In this document: positions 14,354 through 29,411 of the stretch, in pieces
How the letters are laid out: every line of letters begins with the position of its first letter
Numbering within the stretch: the first letter of the stretch is position 1
Source: Acidimicrobiaceae bacterium
GTDB taxonomy: Bacteria; Actinomycetota; Acidimicrobiia; Acidimicrobiales; Ilumatobacteraceae
DNA length: 50,046 nt
Reading direction: 5' to 3'
NCBI GenBank assembly: GCA_002698945.1
Contig: NZZV01000082.1
Span: 1 to 50,046 of the forward strand
Translations under genes and position numbers: made by a program
Notes under the pieces: model-generated
Told to the model about the DNA's origin: nothing
Databases searched by the model: none
What the model saw: only the letters and a program-made list of their open reading frames with translations

Positions 14354-14450
14354 CACGAATGGTGTCACGAATGGTGTCGGATCCCTTGCGTGCCTCGACC
14401 TGGGCCGGTGTACGACCTGCATGCACGCAAGGGATCCGACACCATTCGTG
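14354..14450. terminator. Perfect 28-bp-arm inverted repeat with a 12-bp tandem duplication, convergent junction
   Basis: Arms 14366-14393 and 14423-14450 are exact complements, with a 29-nt loop. The outer 12 bp of the left arm (CACGAATGGTGT) is duplicated in tandem just before it (14354-14365). It lies between the stops of the HEAT gene (14335) and the GNAT gene (14463), consistent with a bidirectional terminator. Confidence 0.75.
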
Positions 14451-14462
14451 CGGTGACCGAGG

Positions 14463-14894
14463 TTACAGCTGGAAGCGGTAGAGGTTGGTGTCGTAGGGCT
14501 CGAAGCCGATGCGCTGGTACAGGCGGTTGGCGGAGTCGCGCGACGCTCGGCTGGTGAGGCTGACGTTCTTGGCGCCGCGCGCTCGGGCCTCGTCGAGGGC
14601 CGCGAGATTCAGGGCTTCACCGACACCGTTGCCCCGCGCTGCGTCGTCGACGACGACGTCTTCGATCCACGCCTTGACACCGGTCGGGATGCGGTAGAAC
14701 GCGAGCGTCAGGCTCCCGACGATGGCCCCGTCGAGGCGGGCCAGGAACAGCACCGAGTGCGGGTTGTCGACGATCGCGCCCAATGCCGAGGCGTCGGGAG
14801 GCGGCGACGACGAGGACAGCTGGGGGATGAGGTGGGCGAACGCGTCGACGAGTTCGCCATCGACGTTGCGGCACTGGCTGATCTCCACGGTCAC
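14463..14894 (-). CDS. GNAT-family N-acetyltransferase
   Basis: A 143-residue single GNAT domain. The acetyl-CoA pyrophosphate-binding loop is ARGNGVGEAL (motif A, consensus R/Q-x-x-G-x-G/A, here preceded by WIEDVVVDDA), and motif B is DSANRLYQRIGFEPYDTNLY. These features match small-molecule or protein N-acetyltransferases; the acceptor is not predictable. I place the start at GTG 14892-14894 (VTVEISQCRNVDG); the frame continues upstream but is antisense to the PAC2 gene. It is divergent from PAC2, with 73 bp between starts, which must hold both promoters. Confidence 0.85.
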   Translation of the reverse strand: MTVEISQCRNVDGELVDAFAHLIPQLSSSSPPPDASALGAIVDNPHSVLFLARLDGAIVGSLTLAFYRIPTGVKAWIEDVVVDDAARGNGVGEALNLAALDEARARGAKNVSLTSRASRDSANRLYQRIGFEPYDTNLYRFQL

Positions 14895-14967
14895 GCGGCC
14901 GACGCTACCCCCGCAGCGTCCGCCGACACGGACGGTCGTCCACTCACGTGCCGGTAGTGTGAGGCCG

Positions 14968-15855
14968 ATGGAGCACGTGCGATGGCTGCCCGGAGTCGAC
15001 GCGATCACGCTCACCAACCCTGTCGTCGTCGCGGCGTTCACGGGCTGGAACGACGCCGGCGACGCCGCCTCCACTGCGGTGCGCACGATGATCGAGTCGT
15101 CCGGTGCCGTGCCGCTCGCCGAGATCGACCCCGAGCCGTTCACCGACTTCGCCACCGTGCGCCCGCACGTGACACTCGACGCGGAGCGCAACCGGTCGAT
15201 CGTGTGGCCGACCGTCGGCGTGTGGGGTGCCACGACGCCCGGCACCGACGTCGTGCTCGTGCTCGGCCCGGAACCGGCGCTCAAGTGGCGCACGTTCTGC
15301 GAGCAGATCGTCGTCGTCGCCGATCGCGTCGGTGCTCGCATGGCGTTCACGCTCGGTGCGCTGCTCGCGGACGTCCCGCACACGCGTCGCACCCAGGTGA
15401 TCGGCACCGCGACCGACCCGGACCTGCTCGAGCGGTTCGAACTCGAACGGTCCCGGTACGAGGGACCGACGGGCATCGTCGGCGTGCTGCACGAGGCACT
15501 GTCGAACAACGGCTTCCCGACCGCGTCGCTGTGGGCGGCCGTGCCGGGCTACGCGGCACAGTTGCCGTCGCCGCGAGCGACGTTCGCCCTGCTCGAGAAG
15601 TCGTGCACGATGATGGGGACGCCGGCGCCGGTCGCCGGCGTGGCCGCCGAGATCGCCGACTACGACGCCAAGGTCGCCGCGCTGATCTCCGACGACGACG
15701 ACCTCGTCACCTACGTGTCACGACTCGAGGACATGGTCGACGAGATGGCCGACGACACCGGACTCGACGACGACGACTTCGAGACGATCGACGACACCGA
15801 CCCCGGCCTCCTCGTCGACGAAGTCGAACAGTTCCTCCGCAACCAAGATGACTGA
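14968..15855 (+). CDS. PAC2 family protein
   Basis: A 295-residue member of the PAC2 (proteasome assembly chaperone 2-like) family, common in Actinobacteria. The N-terminal half has the typical phrases VVAAFTGWNDAGDAASTAVR and DVVLVLGPEPALKWRTFCEQ, and the middle has GALLADVPHTRR and AAVPGYAAQLPSPRATFALL. The C-terminal 45 residues are very acidic (DDTGLDDDDFETIDDTDPG), as in mycobacterial homologues. Its biochemical role in bacteria is unresolved; no proteasome gene is in the window. ATG at 14968 gives the family N-terminus (MEHVRWLPGVDAITLTNPVV). Confidence 0.88.
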   Translation: MEHVRWLPGVDAITLTNPVVVAAFTGWNDAGDAASTAVRTMIESSGAVPLAEIDPEPFTDFATVRPHVTLDAERNRSIVWPTVGVWGATTPGTDVVLVLGPEPALKWRTFCEQIVVVADRVGARMAFTLGALLADVPHTRRTQVIGTATDPDLLERFELERSRYEGPTGIVGVLHEALSNNGFPTASLWAAVPGYAAQLPSPRATFALLEKSCTMMGTPAPVAGVAAEIADYDAKVAALISDDDDLVTYVSRLEDMVDEMADDTGLDDDDFETIDDTDPGLLVDEVEQFLRNQDD

Positions 15856-15909: not shown

Positions 15910-16018
15910 CTGAGCCGGGAACGGATCGTGCGCTCGCAAGGCGCGACGAACCCGAGCAGCCTCTCGGCTGCGAGCGGTGAGGCGGAACGCCGCGAGCGTG
16001 CGATCCGGCCCGGCTCAG
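15910..16018. repeat. 109-bp dispersed structured repeat, copy A
   Basis: This element recurs at 26698-26806 with identical length and about 90% identity, including an uninterrupted identical core of over 50 bp. Its ends are inverted repeats (CTGAGCCGGG at 15910-15919; CCCGGCTCAG at 16009-16018) continuing inward through CGGATCG and CGCTCGC pairs, so about 25 bp of each arm can pair. An inner hairpin GCAGCC/GGCTGC lies in the core. The right arm contains the stop codon of the Nudix gene. Several differences from copy B are compensatory. No target-site duplication is obvious. Confidence 0.9.
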
Positions 16019-16710
16019 GTTCGCCAGACGGTGTCTCTCGGGGGATCGAACCTGGCGGGGGTGGGGGTGCCGGTGATGGCGGCGAAGGCGACCGGGCCCC
16101 ACCAGCTGGCGCCGGCGGTCGCCTCGGGCATCGAGGTCGGGCCGAACCAGCCGACGTCGCTCGTCTCGAGTGGGTGGGTGCGCAACTCCCCGCCGGTCGC
16201 CCGGCAGTGGAACAGCAGCATGTACATCGCGAAGCGCGAGAAGCCCATCCGCTGTCCGTCGATCACCGAGATCAAACTCACCGGTTCACACTCGATGCCG
16301 GTCTCCTCCGACACTTCCTTGACCGCGACCTCCGACGGTGAGTAGCCGACGTCGGCCCACCCCGTCGGGTACAGCCAGATCCCCGAGTCGGCGCGCTGCA
16401 CGAGCAGGATCTCACCGTCGTCGTTGCCCACCACGGCGCCGATCGCGACCTTCGGCGTGACGTAGCCCGGCACGCCCTCACCGATGTTCTCGAGCCACTC
16501 CTGCACGAAGTGGTCCTGCTCACGTTCGACCTCGGCGGCTTCCTCCATCTCCGCCGCGGCGGCCTTGATGTCGCCGGCGATGTGGAGCACTTCTTCGTAC
16601 CGCTCCCGCTCGTAGAGGTTCTCGGTGAACCCCATGCCGGTGCGGGCGATGGCCGCCAGTGAGCTGCTCCAGCGGGCGAGGTCGCGGGGCTCGGGTCCTT
16701 GGCTTCGCAC
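16015..16710 (-). CDS. Nudix hydrolase with N-terminal helical Nudix_N domain
   Basis: A 231-residue protein. Residues about 5-65 (RDLARWSSSLAAIARTGMGF) resemble the helical N-terminal domain found in YjhB-like ADP-ribose pyrophosphatases. The Nudix domain follows from VTPKVAIGAVVGNDDGEILL. The Nudix box reads GYSPSEVAVKEVSEETGI: the EExG core (EVSEETG) that holds the metal is present, but the Arg of REUxEE is Lys and the Glu of GESPxE is Tyr. Such substitutions occur in this subgroup, so activity is likely but the substrate is uncertain (nucleoside-diphosphate linked). GTG at 16708-16710 is preferred over the ATG at 16794, which would overlap glnD. The stop codon lies within repeat copy A. 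Confidence 0.82.
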   Translation of the reverse strand: MRSQGPEPRDLARWSSSLAAIARTGMGFTENLYERERYEEVLHIAGDIKAAAAEMEEAAEVEREQDHFVQEWLENIGEGVPGYVTPKVAIGAVVGNDDGEILLVQRADSGIWLYPTGWADVGYSPSEVAVKEVSEETGIECEPVSLISVIDGQRMGFSRFAMYMLLFHCRATGGELRTHPLETSDVGWFGPTSMPEATAGASWWGPVAFAAITGTPTPARFDPPRDTVWRT

Positions 16711-16790
16711 GACAGCGACGCTACACGCCGCCTTGATCGAACGATCAGCCGGTCGGCGCGTCAACTGGTCGGCACTCACCGGTCGGCAGG

Positions 16791-19118
16791 TCAACCGATC
16801 GCGTGGAGGACGGCGCGTTCGATTTCGGCGCGGTGGCCGGCGTCGGTGATCCGGTTGCCGTTCCAGTCACGGACGTAGAACGTGTCGATCACCTCGGAGC
16901 CGATCGTCTGCACCGTTGCGTGCCGGATGTCGAGTCCGACCTCGGCCAACGCCTTGGTGATCCGGTAGAGGATGCCGATCTTGGTCTGGCAACGGACCTC
17001 GATGACGCTCGCGTCGTCGGACGCCTCGTCGTGGAACCGGAGCCGTGGCGGGCCGGGGTCGGCTGCCTGCAGCGTGCGGCGCCGTCGGTACGTCTTGGCG
17101 CGTTCGGCGAGACGCGACTCGATCGCGAGACGACCTTGCAGCGCCCGTTCGAGGTCGAGCACCACGGGCTCCCACTCGACGCCGGTGCGCGGCATCTGGA
17201 TCCGGAACTCGGAGGCGCCCATGCTGACCCGACCGAGCTGCGGCTCGTCGGAGTGGGCACGGGCGGCCAACACGTCGAGCCCGTGCAGCGACACGACGCC
17301 GGCGATCCGGCTGAACATGCCGGGCGCGTCGCGGTACACGATGAGCAGGCGGGTGCCGTCGACGCGAACGTGCGGATCGCCGGTCGCCATGAGGGCGAGC
17401 GTCTCGGCGTCGGGGAACAACGTCCAGGTGGCGTCGGCGACGTCGCCGCCACCCACGACGTGCGACACCCGCTCGACGAGCTCCTGTACGAGCTGCTCTT
17501 TCCAGCTGCCCCACGCCGACGGCCCGGTCGCTTTCGAGTCGGCGATCGTGAGCGCGTGGAGGAGCTCCAGCACGTCCTGGGTCTCGACCCGCTCGGCGAC
17601 GTCCGTGAGCGTCGCCGGGTCGGACAGATCGCGCCGCATCGCGACGTCGGGGAGGAGCAGGTGGTGTTCGACCATCTTGATGATCACGGCGGTGTCGGCG
17701 TCGGTGAGGCCGAGCCGCGGCCCGAGATCACGCATCATGTCCATGCCGACCTCGGTGTGGTCACCGGGGTAGCCCTTGCCGATGTCGTGGAACAACGCGC
17801 CGAGCACCAGCAGGTCGGGGCGGCCCACCATGTCGACGAGCTCGCTCGCGTTCGCCGCTGCTTCCCACAGATGACGGTCGACGGTGAACCGGTGGTATGC
17901 GTTGCGCTGCGGTCGCGAGCGCACCGGCTCCCACTCGGGCAGCATGCGCGAGATCAGCCCGCGCTGGTCGAGCGCCTCGAGCACCGGGATCGCCTGGTGA
18001 CCCTCCAGCAGCAACGCGACGAGCTTGTCGATCGCGCCGGCCGGCCACCGGCTCGGCCAATCCGGGAGCAGCTCGGCGAGACGGTCGAGGCTCGTGCGTC
18101 CGATGCGGGCGCGGTGCCGGGCGGCCGAGGTCGCGATGCGCAAGATGTACGTCGGGTCGATCGACGGGTCGGCGTCGACGGCGAGTTCCATCTCCCCGTC
18201 GATGTACATGACGCCCGGTGCCACCTCGCGCGGCACCCCGCCCTGTCCCTTGTCGAGCCGCCCCCACGCCTCGTCGGCGATCCAGGCGATCGAGCGGGCA
18301 GCGGCGGCGATGTCGGCCATGAACGCGTCGGCGCTCTCCGCCCCGGCCGCTTCGGCCGCCGCGTCCTGGTCTTCGAGGCGGAGCGTGTCGCCGGTGCGTT
18401 CGGTCGCCAGGTGGAGTGCGACGCGCGCCGACAACAAGACGTCGTAGCACTCGTTCAGCATCCGGTTGTCTTCGTCGTTCAGGGTCAGACCACCGCGCTC
18501 GGCCCACCAGAGCGAGTGGGCATCGCGGATGCCGCCGTGGCCGTTCTTCAGGTCGGGTTCGAGGATGTAGGCGACGTCGCCGGCGTTGGTCTGACGTTCG
18601 AGCACACGGCGGGCCAGTTCGAGGCGCCACCGTTTCTTGCGCTTCGTCCAGTTCTTCAGCCCGGCGTCGACGACGGTCGCCCCGAGCTTCTCGTCACCCC
18701 AGATCGGGCGCGCCGTCAGGAGTGCGGTGGCGGTGTCGAGGTCGTCCTTGGCCAAGGCGAGGTGGTCGTCGAACGTTCGCACGGCGTGACCCAGTTTCAG
18801 CCCGGCGTCCCAGATCGGATACCAGATCGCCGACGCGACGGCCTCCATCGACTGCTTGCTCTGGTGGATCAGCACGAGATCGATGTCGCTCTGCGGCGAC
18901 AGCTCTCCTCGCCCGTAGCCACCGACCGCGACGAGCACGAACTTGGGGGCGCGGGGATGTTCGTCGCGTGCGCGTCGGGCGAGGGCCGCGATCCAGGCGT
19001 CGGTCGCCGCGGCGAGCCGGTGGCAGTACTCCCGACCCCCGACGGAACGATCGACCAGCGCTGCCTGGCGCGCCTCCCACGCCCGGTCGATGTTGCCTCG
19101 TGTCGTGGCCGTCGTCAC
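16791..19118 (-). CDS. glnD: Bifunctional [protein-PII] uridylyltransferase/uridylyl-removing enzyme
   Basis: A 775-residue GlnD. The nucleotidyltransferase domain has GGYGRGELSPQSDIDLVLIH (residues about 67-86) with the metal-binding Asp pair. The central HD domain has FHDIGKGYPGDHTEVG for UMP removal. Two ACT domains follow: IVYRDAPGMFSRIAGVVSLH and VRCQTKIGILYRITKALAEV, which sense glutamine. It modifies PII proteins in the nitrogen-control circuit in the cytoplasm. GTG at 19116-19118. It is shorter than E. coli GlnD (about 890) but typical for Actinobacteria. The usual amtB-glnB neighbours are absent here, so it appears to be a separate transcription unit. Confidence 0.95.
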   Translation of the reverse strand: MTTATTRGNIDRAWEARQAALVDRSVGGREYCHRLAAATDAWIAALARRARDEHPRAPKFVLVAVGGYGRGELSPQSDIDLVLIHQSKQSMEAVASAIWYPIWDAGLKLGHAVRTFDDHLALAKDDLDTATALLTARPIWGDEKLGATVVDAGLKNWTKRKKRWRLELARRVLERQTNAGDVAYILEPDLKNGHGGIRDAHSLWWAERGGLTLNDEDNRMLNECYDVLLSARVALHLATERTGDTLRLEDQDAAAEAAGAESADAFMADIAAAARSIAWIADEAWGRLDKGQGGVPREVAPGVMYIDGEMELAVDADPSIDPTYILRIATSAARHRARIGRTSLDRLAELLPDWPSRWPAGAIDKLVALLLEGHQAIPVLEALDQRGLISRMLPEWEPVRSRPQRNAYHRFTVDRHLWEAAANASELVDMVGRPDLLVLGALFHDIGKGYPGDHTEVGMDMMRDLGPRLGLTDADTAVIIKMVEHHLLLPDVAMRRDLSDPATLTDVAERVETQDVLELLHALTIADSKATGPSAWGSWKEQLVQELVERVSHVVGGGDVADATWTLFPDAETLALMATGDPHVRVDGTRLLIVYRDAPGMFSRIAGVVSLHGLDVLAARAHSDEPQLGRVSMGASEFRIQMPRTGVEWEPVVLDLERALQGRLAIESRLAERAKTYRRRRTLQAADPGPPRLRFHDEASDDASVIEVRCQTKIGILYRITKALAEVGLDIRHATVQTIGSEVIDTFYVRDWNGNRITDAGHRAEIERAVLHAIG

Positions 19119-24926: not shown

Positions 24927-24927
<1 letters not shown>
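24889..24927. terminator. 39-bp perfect palindrome (19-1-19) touching the groEL stop codon
   Basis: Arms 24889-24907 and 24909-24927 are exact complements around T24908. The right arm ends on the last base of the groEL stop codon (24927-24929 on the plus strand). With the hairpin at 24834 it forms a back-to-back pair between convergent genes. Confidence 0.75.
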
Positions 24928-26603
<1,676 letters not shown>

Positions 26604-26607
<4 letters not shown>

Positions 26608-26630
26608 CACTCTACAACCGAGACTGCTAA
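26604..26630 (-). promoter_or_regulatory. CIRCE operator 2, overlapping operator 1 by 4 bp
   Basis: CTAGCACTC-N9-GACTGCTAA at 26604-26612 and 26622-26630. It shares the CTAG at 26604-26607 with operator 1, so the two 27-bp sites are offset by 23 bp, about two helical turns. Confidence 0.85.
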
Positions 26631-26697: not shown

Positions 26698-26806
26698 CTG
26701 AGCGGTGATCGGATCGTGCGAGCGCAAGGCGCGACGAACCCGAGCAGCCTCTCGGCTGCGAGCGGTGAGGCGGAACGCAGCGATCGTGCGATCCGGCGCC
26801 GCTCAG
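26698..26806. repeat. 109-bp dispersed structured repeat, copy B
   Basis: Second copy of the element at 15910-16018, same length and orientation. Ends CTGAGCGGTG (26698-26707) and CGCCGCTCAG (26797-26806). The stop codon of the CysO-like gene (26803-26805) is in the right arm, as the Nudix stop is in copy A. Position 7 from each end has changed C:G to G:C relative to copy A, and an inner pair C:G to A:T, so pairing is kept. Confidence 0.9.
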
Positions 26807-27081
26807 CAGCCGCCGGCGACGGCGGGGATGATGGAGACGGTGATGCCGTCGGGGACCTGGGTGCCGAGGCCGTCGAGGTAGCGGACGTCGTCGTCGTCGA
26901 CGAAGACGTTCACGAACTTGCGCAGGTCGCCGTCGTCGTCGAGGAGGCGATCGGAGAAGCCGGGATGCTGGGCGTCGAGTCCGGCGATCACCTCGGAGAG
27001 GGTCCCCGGCTCGACCTCGACCAGCTTGTTGCCGCCGGCCATCGGGCGGAGGGTGGTGGGGATGCGAACCGTGACTGCCAT
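26803..27081 (-). CDS. CysO-like ThiS/MoaD-family sulfur carrier protein ending Gly-Gly-Cys
   Basis: A 92-residue ubiquitin-fold sulfur carrier. MAVTVRIPTTLRPMAGGNKL and the end FVNVFVDDDDVRYL...GITVSIIPAVAGG follow mycobacterial CysO closely; CysO carries a C-terminal thiocarboxylate used by CysM to make cysteine, which Mec then releases. The unusual point is that the encoded protein ends AVAGGC (Gly90-Gly91-Cys92): one Cys follows the Gly-Gly. To be activated the terminal Cys would first have to be removed, as JAMM proteases do for the GGCF tail of QbsE. ATG at 27079-27081. No cysM or mec gene is in the window. The stop codon lies in repeat copy B. Confidence 0.85.
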   Translation of the reverse strand: MAVTVRIPTTLRPMAGGNKLVEVEPGTLSEVIAGLDAQHPGFSDRLLDDDGDLRKFVNVFVDDDDVRYLDGLGTQVPDGITVSIIPAVAGGC

Positions 27082-27159
27082 ACGGGAAAAGATAACTGAA
27101 CTGGTCGGGATTTCATTCCCGAGCCGTTCCCTCGTGACAGGTTGCGTAGGGTCTCGCCC

Positions 27160-29327: not shown

Positions 29328-29411
29328 GTCGGTTGGGGTCAGACCTCAACCGACAGCAGTTGCGACGCCCTCGACGGCCAGTATGTCGGTTGAGGTCTGA
29401 CCCCAACCGAC
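29328..29411. terminator. Perfect 28-bp-arm inverted repeat built from a 27-bp near-palindrome, convergent junction
   Basis: Arms 29328-29355 and 29384-29411 are exact complements, loop 28 nt. Each arm is itself nearly palindromic (GTCGGTTG...CAACCGAC). It lies between the glycerate kinase stop (29326) and the LytR_C gene stop (29421), as a bidirectional terminator would. A third, diverged copy of the 27-bp unit is at 43618-43644. Confidence 0.75.

Follow-up and report, generated by a model that had tools for sequence, protein, structure and literature searches.

As far as the available part of one account goes (PMC3733652), REPs are interspersed palindromes that lie mostly downstream of coding regions, less than 20 bp from the 3′ end of the upstream open reading frame in the genomes shown; the string "Actinobacteri" does not occur in the text of that paper. 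A second paper, in the sections at hand, counts REP-like palindromes in three Actinomycetota, Acidimicrobium among them, and does not name the element described below (PMC12306157). The same sections report, citing earlier work, that REPs within 15 nt of a stop codon stall ribosomes and that in E. coli they down-regulate translation (PMC12306157). REPINs, in the excerpted text of PMC3116915, are inverted doublets of REPs that are thought to be moved by RAYTs, and they display compensatory changes and conserved ends. Template switching, by which one arm of a hairpin is rewritten as a block from the other, has been proposed in the available portion of another study both to create RNA stems and to help maintain them (PMC8794818).

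The element considered here is REP-class in its behavior, yet it lies outside the described REP and REPIN families. With REPs of the GTAG/CGTC type it shares the common feature of interspersed intergenic palindromes near gene 3′ ends, and in 89 of 98 aligned copies a stop codon lies within 15 nt, the distance given for REPs that regulate translation. REPs of that type, however, are 20–40 bp long and carry a terminal GTAG or CGTC tag, whereas the element is a single hairpin of 109 nt, with a conserved middle, variable ends, and one orientation at the stop codon in the same 89 of 98 copies. It resembles REPINs in forming hairpins with compensatory changes, but the layout is reversed: REPINs combine conserved ends with a variable spacer. 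The element adds to the REP-like gene-end repeats an Ilumatobacter-type arrangement in which the middle is conserved, the ends are free, and the orientation is nearly strict.

Two copies lie in the window, the whole 50,046-nt stretch of contig NZZV01000082.1 (assembly GCA_002698945.1, from an Acidimicrobiaceae bacterium) that was analyzed. Their features and flanking genes are:

15910–16018, + strand (the pairing strand, antisense to the Nudix gene): element copy 1, an imperfect hairpin; 120.5 bits with model R1
26698–26806, + strand: element copy 2, oriented to its gene as copy 1 is; 122.4 bits with model R1
15935–15990, + strand: conserved core of copy 1; all 56 nt are the same in copy 2, and alignments A2 and A4 show the core to be conserved
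26723–26778, + strand: conserved core of copy 2; all 56 nt are the same in copy 1
15910–15918, + strand: left strand of the outer 9-bp stem of copy 1, from the A4 structure
16010–16018, + strand: right strand of the outer 9-bp stem of copy 1; its TCA is the Nudix stop codon TGA at 16015–16017
26698–26706, + strand: left strand of the outer 9-bp stem of copy 2, from the A4 structure
26798–26806, + strand: right strand of the outer 9-bp stem of copy 2, with the stop codon of the ThiS/CysO-like gene at 26803–26805
16015–16794, − strand: Nudix hydrolase gene, ending in copy 1 (Pfam NUDIX, 9.6e-15, and Nudix_N)
26803–27087, − strand: ThiS/CysO-like gene, ending in copy 2 (Pfam ThiS, 2.4e-13); the longest open frame runs to 27300, and the start codon is unsettled
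14722–15855, + strand: PAC2-family gene, convergent, left of copy 1 (Pfam PAC2, 6.7e-50)
24927–26540, − strand: groEL-type chaperonin gene, co-directional, downstream of copy 2 (Pfam Cpn60_TCP1, 5.3e-80)

An earlier note, made from the letters alone, had described two copies of equal length, 109 bp, with an identical core of more than 50 bp. Both statements hold: the copies align without gaps at 91.7% identity, and element positions 26–81 (56 nt) are the same in the two. Where the note had estimated about ten differences, mostly in the arms, nine are counted, at element positions 7, 9, 12, 24, 25, 82, 87, 101, and 103, all of them outside positions 26–81. The paired changes that it had singled out are real; from copy 1 to copy 2, pair 7:103 goes from C:G to G:C and pair 24:87 from C:G to A:T. 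Pair 9:101 goes from G:C to T·G, and a pair is gained in copy 2 at position 12, but not every change keeps pairing, and positions 25 and 82 lose theirs in copy 2. The right arm does contain, as the note had claimed, the TGA of the neighboring minus-strand gene, and Pfam matches to NUDIX and ThiS bear out the two gene assignments. Each copy folds as one long hairpin. On the + strand the folding energies are −78.9 and −68.0 kcal/mol for copies 1 and 2 (z −7.4 and −5.4), better than 200 of 200 shuffled sequences, and on the − strand they are −72.4 and −56.7 kcal/mol (z −6.6 and −3.1). Between copy 2 and the groEL-type gene, at 26580–26612, lies an inverted repeat, GCTAGCACTC..., which we take to be CIRCE-like.

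The two window copies belong to a much larger repeat family. BLAST retrieves 13 copies from the same genome at E ≤ 4.2e-7, together with one partial copy, and a covariance model (R1, built from 13 copies, alignment A2) retrieves 15, so the resemblance of the window pair is not due to chance. Searching relatives with the model, as the earlier note had advised, reveals the element in nine of ten genomes of the genus, each with from at least 3 to at least 29 copies, a range that also holds for the eight positive genomes among the nine others of the genus; these counts are lower bounds because only part of the candidates was scored (150 in the genus search, where candidates numbered up to thousands, and 15–25 in the larger searches). 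The only genus genome without the element is a 1.3-Mb assembly that is 74% complete. At the family level it is present in 22 of 150 genomes, which belong to 5 of 27 genera; in two of those genera it scores weakly. When 248 genomes drawn from the order were searched, four had a match at E ≤ 1e-4; three belong to this same family, and the fourth match, in another family, is weak and lies 29 nt from the nearest called gene end. A pattern scan of named genomes, which may omit records near the genome of the window, returned six stretches, all in Ilumatobacter metagenome-assembled genomes. In the draws tested, the element is thus found almost only in one family, that of Ilumatobacter and its relatives.

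Rfam 15 gave no match at the window element at the gathering threshold, nor in eight loci at E ≤ 1, and a known RNA family was rejected on this basis. An origin from phages or plasmids was likewise rejected, with no record matching copy 1 among phages or copy 2 among plasmids. No report of the element was found in the open papers searched; most subscription papers fell outside the scope of that search.

The anatomy of the hairpin was derived from 106 distinct copies among 117 genus matches (of the 11 left out, one is cut by a contig end, two lie on locus L124, and eight lie outside the stretches retrieved); counted by model hits, 123 less 10 duplicates from overlapping loci, 6 opposite-strand hits of the same copies, and the one cut by a contig end give the same 106. 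Alignment A4 comprises the 98 copies that score E ≤ 1e-9. From the outside inward the unit consists of a 9-bp outer stem, an asymmetric internal loop, an inner stem, the conserved core, and a 6-bp apical stem; across copies the middle is conserved and the arms vary, and the whole is a single long imperfect hairpin. In A4, which was fitted to the model's own structure and whose pairing counts lean toward that structure, standard pairs fill 95.1% of pair cells, two-sided changes occupy 794 cells versus 188 in shuffles, and the covariation score is 0.594, compared with 0.163 for shuffled and 0.05–0.08 for slid alignments. In A2, the first 13 copies aligned without structure, two-sided changes are seen in 27 of 41 predicted pairs. 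The earlier note would have given up its reading had there been no further copies and no covariation; both are present, and the fold is maintained.

The outer and apical stems vary a great deal, yet G·T pairs are rare in them. Cells of the outer stem hold 810 Watson-Crick pairs, 19 G·T, 10 A·C, and 34 others, and those of the apical stem 580, 2, 3, and 3, respectively; one apical pair is T-A in 50 copies, C-G in 47, and T·G in none. The outer stem is 9–10 bp long regardless of its phase to the stop codon, and it mostly stops at the same base, with no extra pair in 67 of 98 copies and one in 29, where shuffled flanks give 70.8 and 20.8. (These counts of stem ends, like those of T-runs, of stops at the left end, and of upstream conservation below, were made on 98 copies with L088 in place of L078_2001.) The base of the stem reads CTGAG, in at least 4 of 5 letters, in 65 of 98 copies; the outer stem is paired in 557 of 585 cells (95%) in these and in 253 of 297 (85%) in the 33 others.

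The association with gene ends is close. With gene ends called from open frames and codon-position G+C, without a gene finder, the stop codon of a gene in the expected orientation lies near the right end in 92 of 98 copies and within 15 nt in the 89 mentioned above. The TGA coincides exactly with the cTGAg of the element in 42 of these 98 copies of A4; on the set with L088 in place of L078_2001, the number within 15 nt is again 89 and that of exact coincidences 41. The nine copies beyond 15 nt include displaced tandem copies and ones near which no gene is clearly called. At the left end an opposing gene terminates within 15 nt in only 4 of 98 copies. Outside the genus, 9 of 13 copies examined have a stop codon within 15 nt. 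The use of gene ends that the earlier note had proposed is borne out by this mapping, and of its three options a small mobile or REP-like element fits best. Host genes named by Pfam include dnaN, rpsJ, rplQ, rplI, thiolase, and cyclophilin. In two complete genus genomes, 24 of 28 sites (tandems counted once, background gene bias not subtracted) lie behind genes that run with replication, where dnaN is presumed to mark the origin and the terminus to lie opposite. Tandem groups of two or three copies occur in G006 and G008 (L073, L078, L072, L115, L110, L041). Inspection by eye indicates that the gene-adjacent copy is complete and that displaced copies mostly keep the left arm and core and lose part of the right arm; in L073_2001 the left arm is changed too.

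Orthologous gene ends may be filled or empty. Among the genomes assessed, which did not include G001, the rpsJ site is filled in G000, G002, and G006 and empty in G003, G004, G005, G007, G008, and G009; dnaN is filled in six genomes, with stop codon TGA or TAG, and empty in G002, G005, and G008, where the stop is TAA; and rplQ is filled in five genomes and empty in G004, G005, and G008. Insertion of a core into pre-existing terminator hairpins was considered and finds no support, the empty rpsJ and rplQ sites having no matching arms by eye; the Nudix site of G002 and G003, however, has a different hairpin at that place. The stable G+C-rich hairpins that directly follow stop codons could suggest a bidirectional or specialized intrinsic transcription terminator, another of the options in the earlier note, but this identity is highly improbable. 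At least four T's in the 9 nt after the hairpin are present in 5 of 98 copies on the sense strand and in 10 of 98 on the antisense strand. Farther out than the element, rpsJ has a terminator-like hairpin, which the empty G003 site has too, and so does rplQ, where G000, G002, and G003 share it. Because of these distal hairpins and the rarity of T-runs, the element is not itself the terminator at the two genes, and the terminator reading was set aside. A terminator, moreover, has no need of the sequence conservation seen in the core. A crude scan of the 160 nt beyond the element gave a terminator-like hairpin with T's for 14 of 96 copies, the hit at L002 being the CIRCE-like repeat.

The strand that pairs can be deduced from the wobble pairs of the inner stem. 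Read on the + strand, the inner stem contains 213 G·T and 8 A·C cells, and G·T alternates with Watson-Crick pairs at A4 columns 12, 22, and 23; the excess of G·T over A·C identifies the + strand, antisense to the gene, as the pairing strand. The 45 nt to the left (upstream) of this strand show no promoter-like conservation, only weak preferences at −9 to −4, and an antisense RNA gene was rejected on that ground.

The attC sites of integrons, too, form a hairpin on the antisense strand of the gene before them, and their conserved parts are the outer boxes. The constant orientation of the element to its gene and the conserved asymmetry of its antisense-strand fold would suit an attC-like site, a bottom-strand hairpin placed after a gene in gene orientation. 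Such a site is nevertheless a near-negligible prospect here: no match to the integron integrase model TIGR02249 exceeds the curated cut-off in any of 10 genomes, no cassettes were seen, the host genes are scattered, and the conserved part is central. An attC site was rejected for want of an integrase above the cut-off; weaker recombinase matches in the same search occur in all 10 genomes and in all 14 control genomes.

The matching of the two arms can be followed where one of them is fixed by a gene. Coding sequence contains the outer right arm of 15 copies (stop at +4 to +15), and in 13 of these all nine outer pairs are Watson-Crick, though their sequences are not the same (TTGAGCTGA, CTCTCGTGA, AGCAGAGCT, AGCAGGGCT, and others). 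L075 and L085 depart from this, with 6 of 9 and 5 of 9 outer pairs, respectively; the right half of L085 resembles the G000 allele and its left outer arm the G007 allele. L085 and L082, both in G002, appear to be recombinants with mismatched arms, as if a crossover had occurred in the conserved core. The rpsJ end AGCAGAGC and the thiolase end CTCTCGTGA are also present in the empty sites of G003; this part is therefore native, and the far arm is its complement. At rpsJ, the complement of the native right outer arm is absent by eye from that place in the empty site of G003.

The rplQ site shows a block change. Between L079 (G002) and L104 (G003), five of nine outer pairs differ, all on both sides, which accounts for 10 of 140 columns; there is no one-sided change and none in an unpaired column, and the inner, core, and apical pairs agree. 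One of the five changed pairs is an A·G mispair in G002; the same left arm in G000 is paired at 9 of 9 positions. The left arm in G003 complements the final codons and stop of the gene in that same species. Over 14 close same-site comparisons, which overlap and are not independent, 55 pairs changed on two sides and 43 on one, and 22 of the 43 one-sided changes fall in L082 and L085. The dnaN copies of G006 and G007 have a native right base of the stem and a left base that is near the consensus and does not fully match the right.

The best explanation, with an even chance of being correct, is that the element is a REP-like repeat of gene ends in which DNA-templated rewriting does most of the work of keeping the arms matched. 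It would be a palindromic repeat of the REP/MITE kind, interspersed in the DNA, spread or homogenized within genomes, and now found, nearly always one way round, where many genes, some of them housekeeping genes, have their stop codons. The reading builds on the observed position, orientation, and stem length, on the covariation and strand asymmetry, and on genome-specific cores. The hairpin would form in DNA, on the strand antisense to the gene. One arm would change first, by insertion, indel, synonymous codon change, or recombination between alleles, and the other would then be rewritten as a block from the changed arm, through template switching or hairpin-templated repair, so that pairing is restored in one step. 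Hairpins at stop codons may have been retained since the gene is spared there, perhaps also through a REP-like action on translation termination or mRNA ends. Copying of DNA from arm to arm is the simplest account because intermediates are few, changes come in blocks, and arms follow codons. Template-switch (quasipalindrome) mutation is alike in its block rewriting, but it is known as a mutation process and not as a repeat family of fixed stem length at stop codons.

It is also possible, though doubtful, that the hairpin is a selected RNA structure at mRNA 3′ ends, in which a sense-strand hairpin slows termination or release, or blocks 3′ exonucleases, and pairing itself is under selection. 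The distance to the stop codon in 89 of 98 copies falls in the range for translation-regulating REPs (PMC12306157, sections at hand), the same gene ends are occupied in several species, those of thiolase and one other gene even in another genus (L130, L135), and the sense strand folds stably too. Yet the wobble-tolerant strand is antisense, so a sense RNA would carry A·C mismatches; wobble intermediates are few in the outer and apical stems; and several orthologous sites are empty. These data do not establish the structured RNA put forward in the earlier note, given an antisense pairing strand, no promoter-like conservation upstream, and paired changes that look DNA-templated. Because of this last feature, covariation does not by itself prove selection on RNA in this family. 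More generally, the element cautions that strong covariation, which usually counts as proof of a functional RNA, can stem from copying at the DNA level. How long stems stay perfectly paired is a known puzzle, and the element lends itself to studying it: protein coding sometimes holds one arm in place, the same sites are occupied in sister species, and the remainder of the element can be identical, so that base-by-base change can be distinguished from copying.

Several observations weigh against the repeat maintained by templated rewriting. The analysis turned up no transposition event, no clear target duplication, and no cognate enzyme; comparison of the filled rpsJ site with the empty one in G003 revealed no clear direct duplication by eye. 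It is not evident why template switching should set a stem length, but most stems end at the same base. In two complete genomes, with dnaN taken to mark the origin, the strand on which the hairpin would fold is not the lagging-strand template for most copies. One-sided changes do exist, pairing is poorer in copies without the CTGAG base, and the left base at dnaN in G006 and G007 only partly matches the right one.

The constant stem length raises another mechanism. It is unlikely, but would account for both the length of the stem and the arms that follow codons, that spread or repair copies the end of the host gene, last codons and stop included, to the far side as a reverse complement of fixed length, 9–10 nt. 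Each copy would then pair with the end of the gene beside it, as a repeat with a conserved centre that carries a programmed inverted copy of its target. The narrower proposal that insertion itself writes the outer stem, by copying the reverse complement of the last 9–10 nt of the target to the far side at fixed length, in a snap-back or guide-paired step, is distinctly unlikely. An outer stem of 9–10 bp whatever the stop phase agrees with it, as do the near-chance level of pairing past that stem, the native right arm at rpsJ whose complement is missing by eye from the empty G003 site, and the tandem groups, in which by eye the gene-proximal copy keeps its right arm and displaced copies mostly lose part of theirs. 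However, the outer stem is usually element sequence, because 65 of 98 copies have the CTGAG base; the dnaN left base in G006 and G007 is still near consensus beside a native right base; and no enzyme is known for such a step.

The distribution of copies among species bears on how the proposed templated-rewriting repeat spreads. After sites were grouped by protein similarity, with L095 removed from the thiolase site by eye as a paralogue and four displaced or doubled copies dropped, 61 of 94 non-tandem copies fall on 20 sites, gene ends that hold the element in at least two species, a pattern that could mean function or deep inheritance and not mobility. In the three closest genomes copies at the same site are clearly related, with a core distance of 0.111 versus 0.28 at other sites; in more distant pairs they barely are, the values being 0.277 and 0.299. 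Cores are more alike within genomes (0.252) than between them (0.305), and 0 of 500 permutations were as low; inner arms are not more alike within genomes, 310 of 500 permutations being as low. Between genomes the outer stem differs more than the core (0.458 and 0.305). As judged from these sequence distances, likeness at the same site and within genomes fits old occupancy plus exchange or spread within genomes. Three loci look by eye like decayed copies, L147 (G002, after the ThiS/CysO-like gene), L155 (G002), and L203 (G008); the right arm is kept, the core or left arm is gone, and the same gene ends are filled in G000.

REPINs have a cognate RAYT that is flanked by their copies, and here the element departs from them. 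Y1_Tnp matches occur in 9 of 61 family genomes, the element in 10, and both in 6, and the genera overlap; yet at 14 Y1 loci (of 15 matches; up to 3 kb on each side, up to 6.3 kb in all, some cut by contig ends) the best element match has E 0.1. A RAYT or Y1 enzyme as mover was rejected for this lack of a good copy beside any of the 14. In G000 the Y1_Tnp match (C46, 18491–18814) has an in-frame TAG, and the gene may be decayed. About 0.5 kb from it lies a palindrome of another family, the GGTCAGACC type. Since that palindrome lies close to the match and no good element match is nearby, Y1 may serve another palindrome family, and GGTCAGACC-type repeats may be the RAYT-linked REP family here.

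The window holds other palindromes. At 29328–29411 a 28-bp perfect inverted repeat, GTCGGTTGGGGTCAGACCTCAACCGACA, with 28 nt between its arms, starts within two bases after the stop of a plus-strand open frame (29326), and of 37 pattern matches to this kind of repeat in the genome, 26 begin with GGTCAGACC. A second 28-bp perfect inverted repeat, CACGAATGGTGTCGGATCCCTTGCGTGC, at 14366–14450, lies within 15 nt of the stop of a minus-strand frame (14463). At 2667–2716 there is a 50-nt near-perfect palindrome, GAATGCGTGAACAATCTGCGG..., and similar ones follow the cyclophilin stop in G002 and G003 (L198, L199). A further palindrome family has arms like GGTCGGATACGTTTCGTCG and is represented by L138 (G003), L137 (G002), and L192 (G007). 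In G002 and G003 the Nudix site holds this different hairpin, which occupies the stop codon at which the 109-nt element lies in the window.
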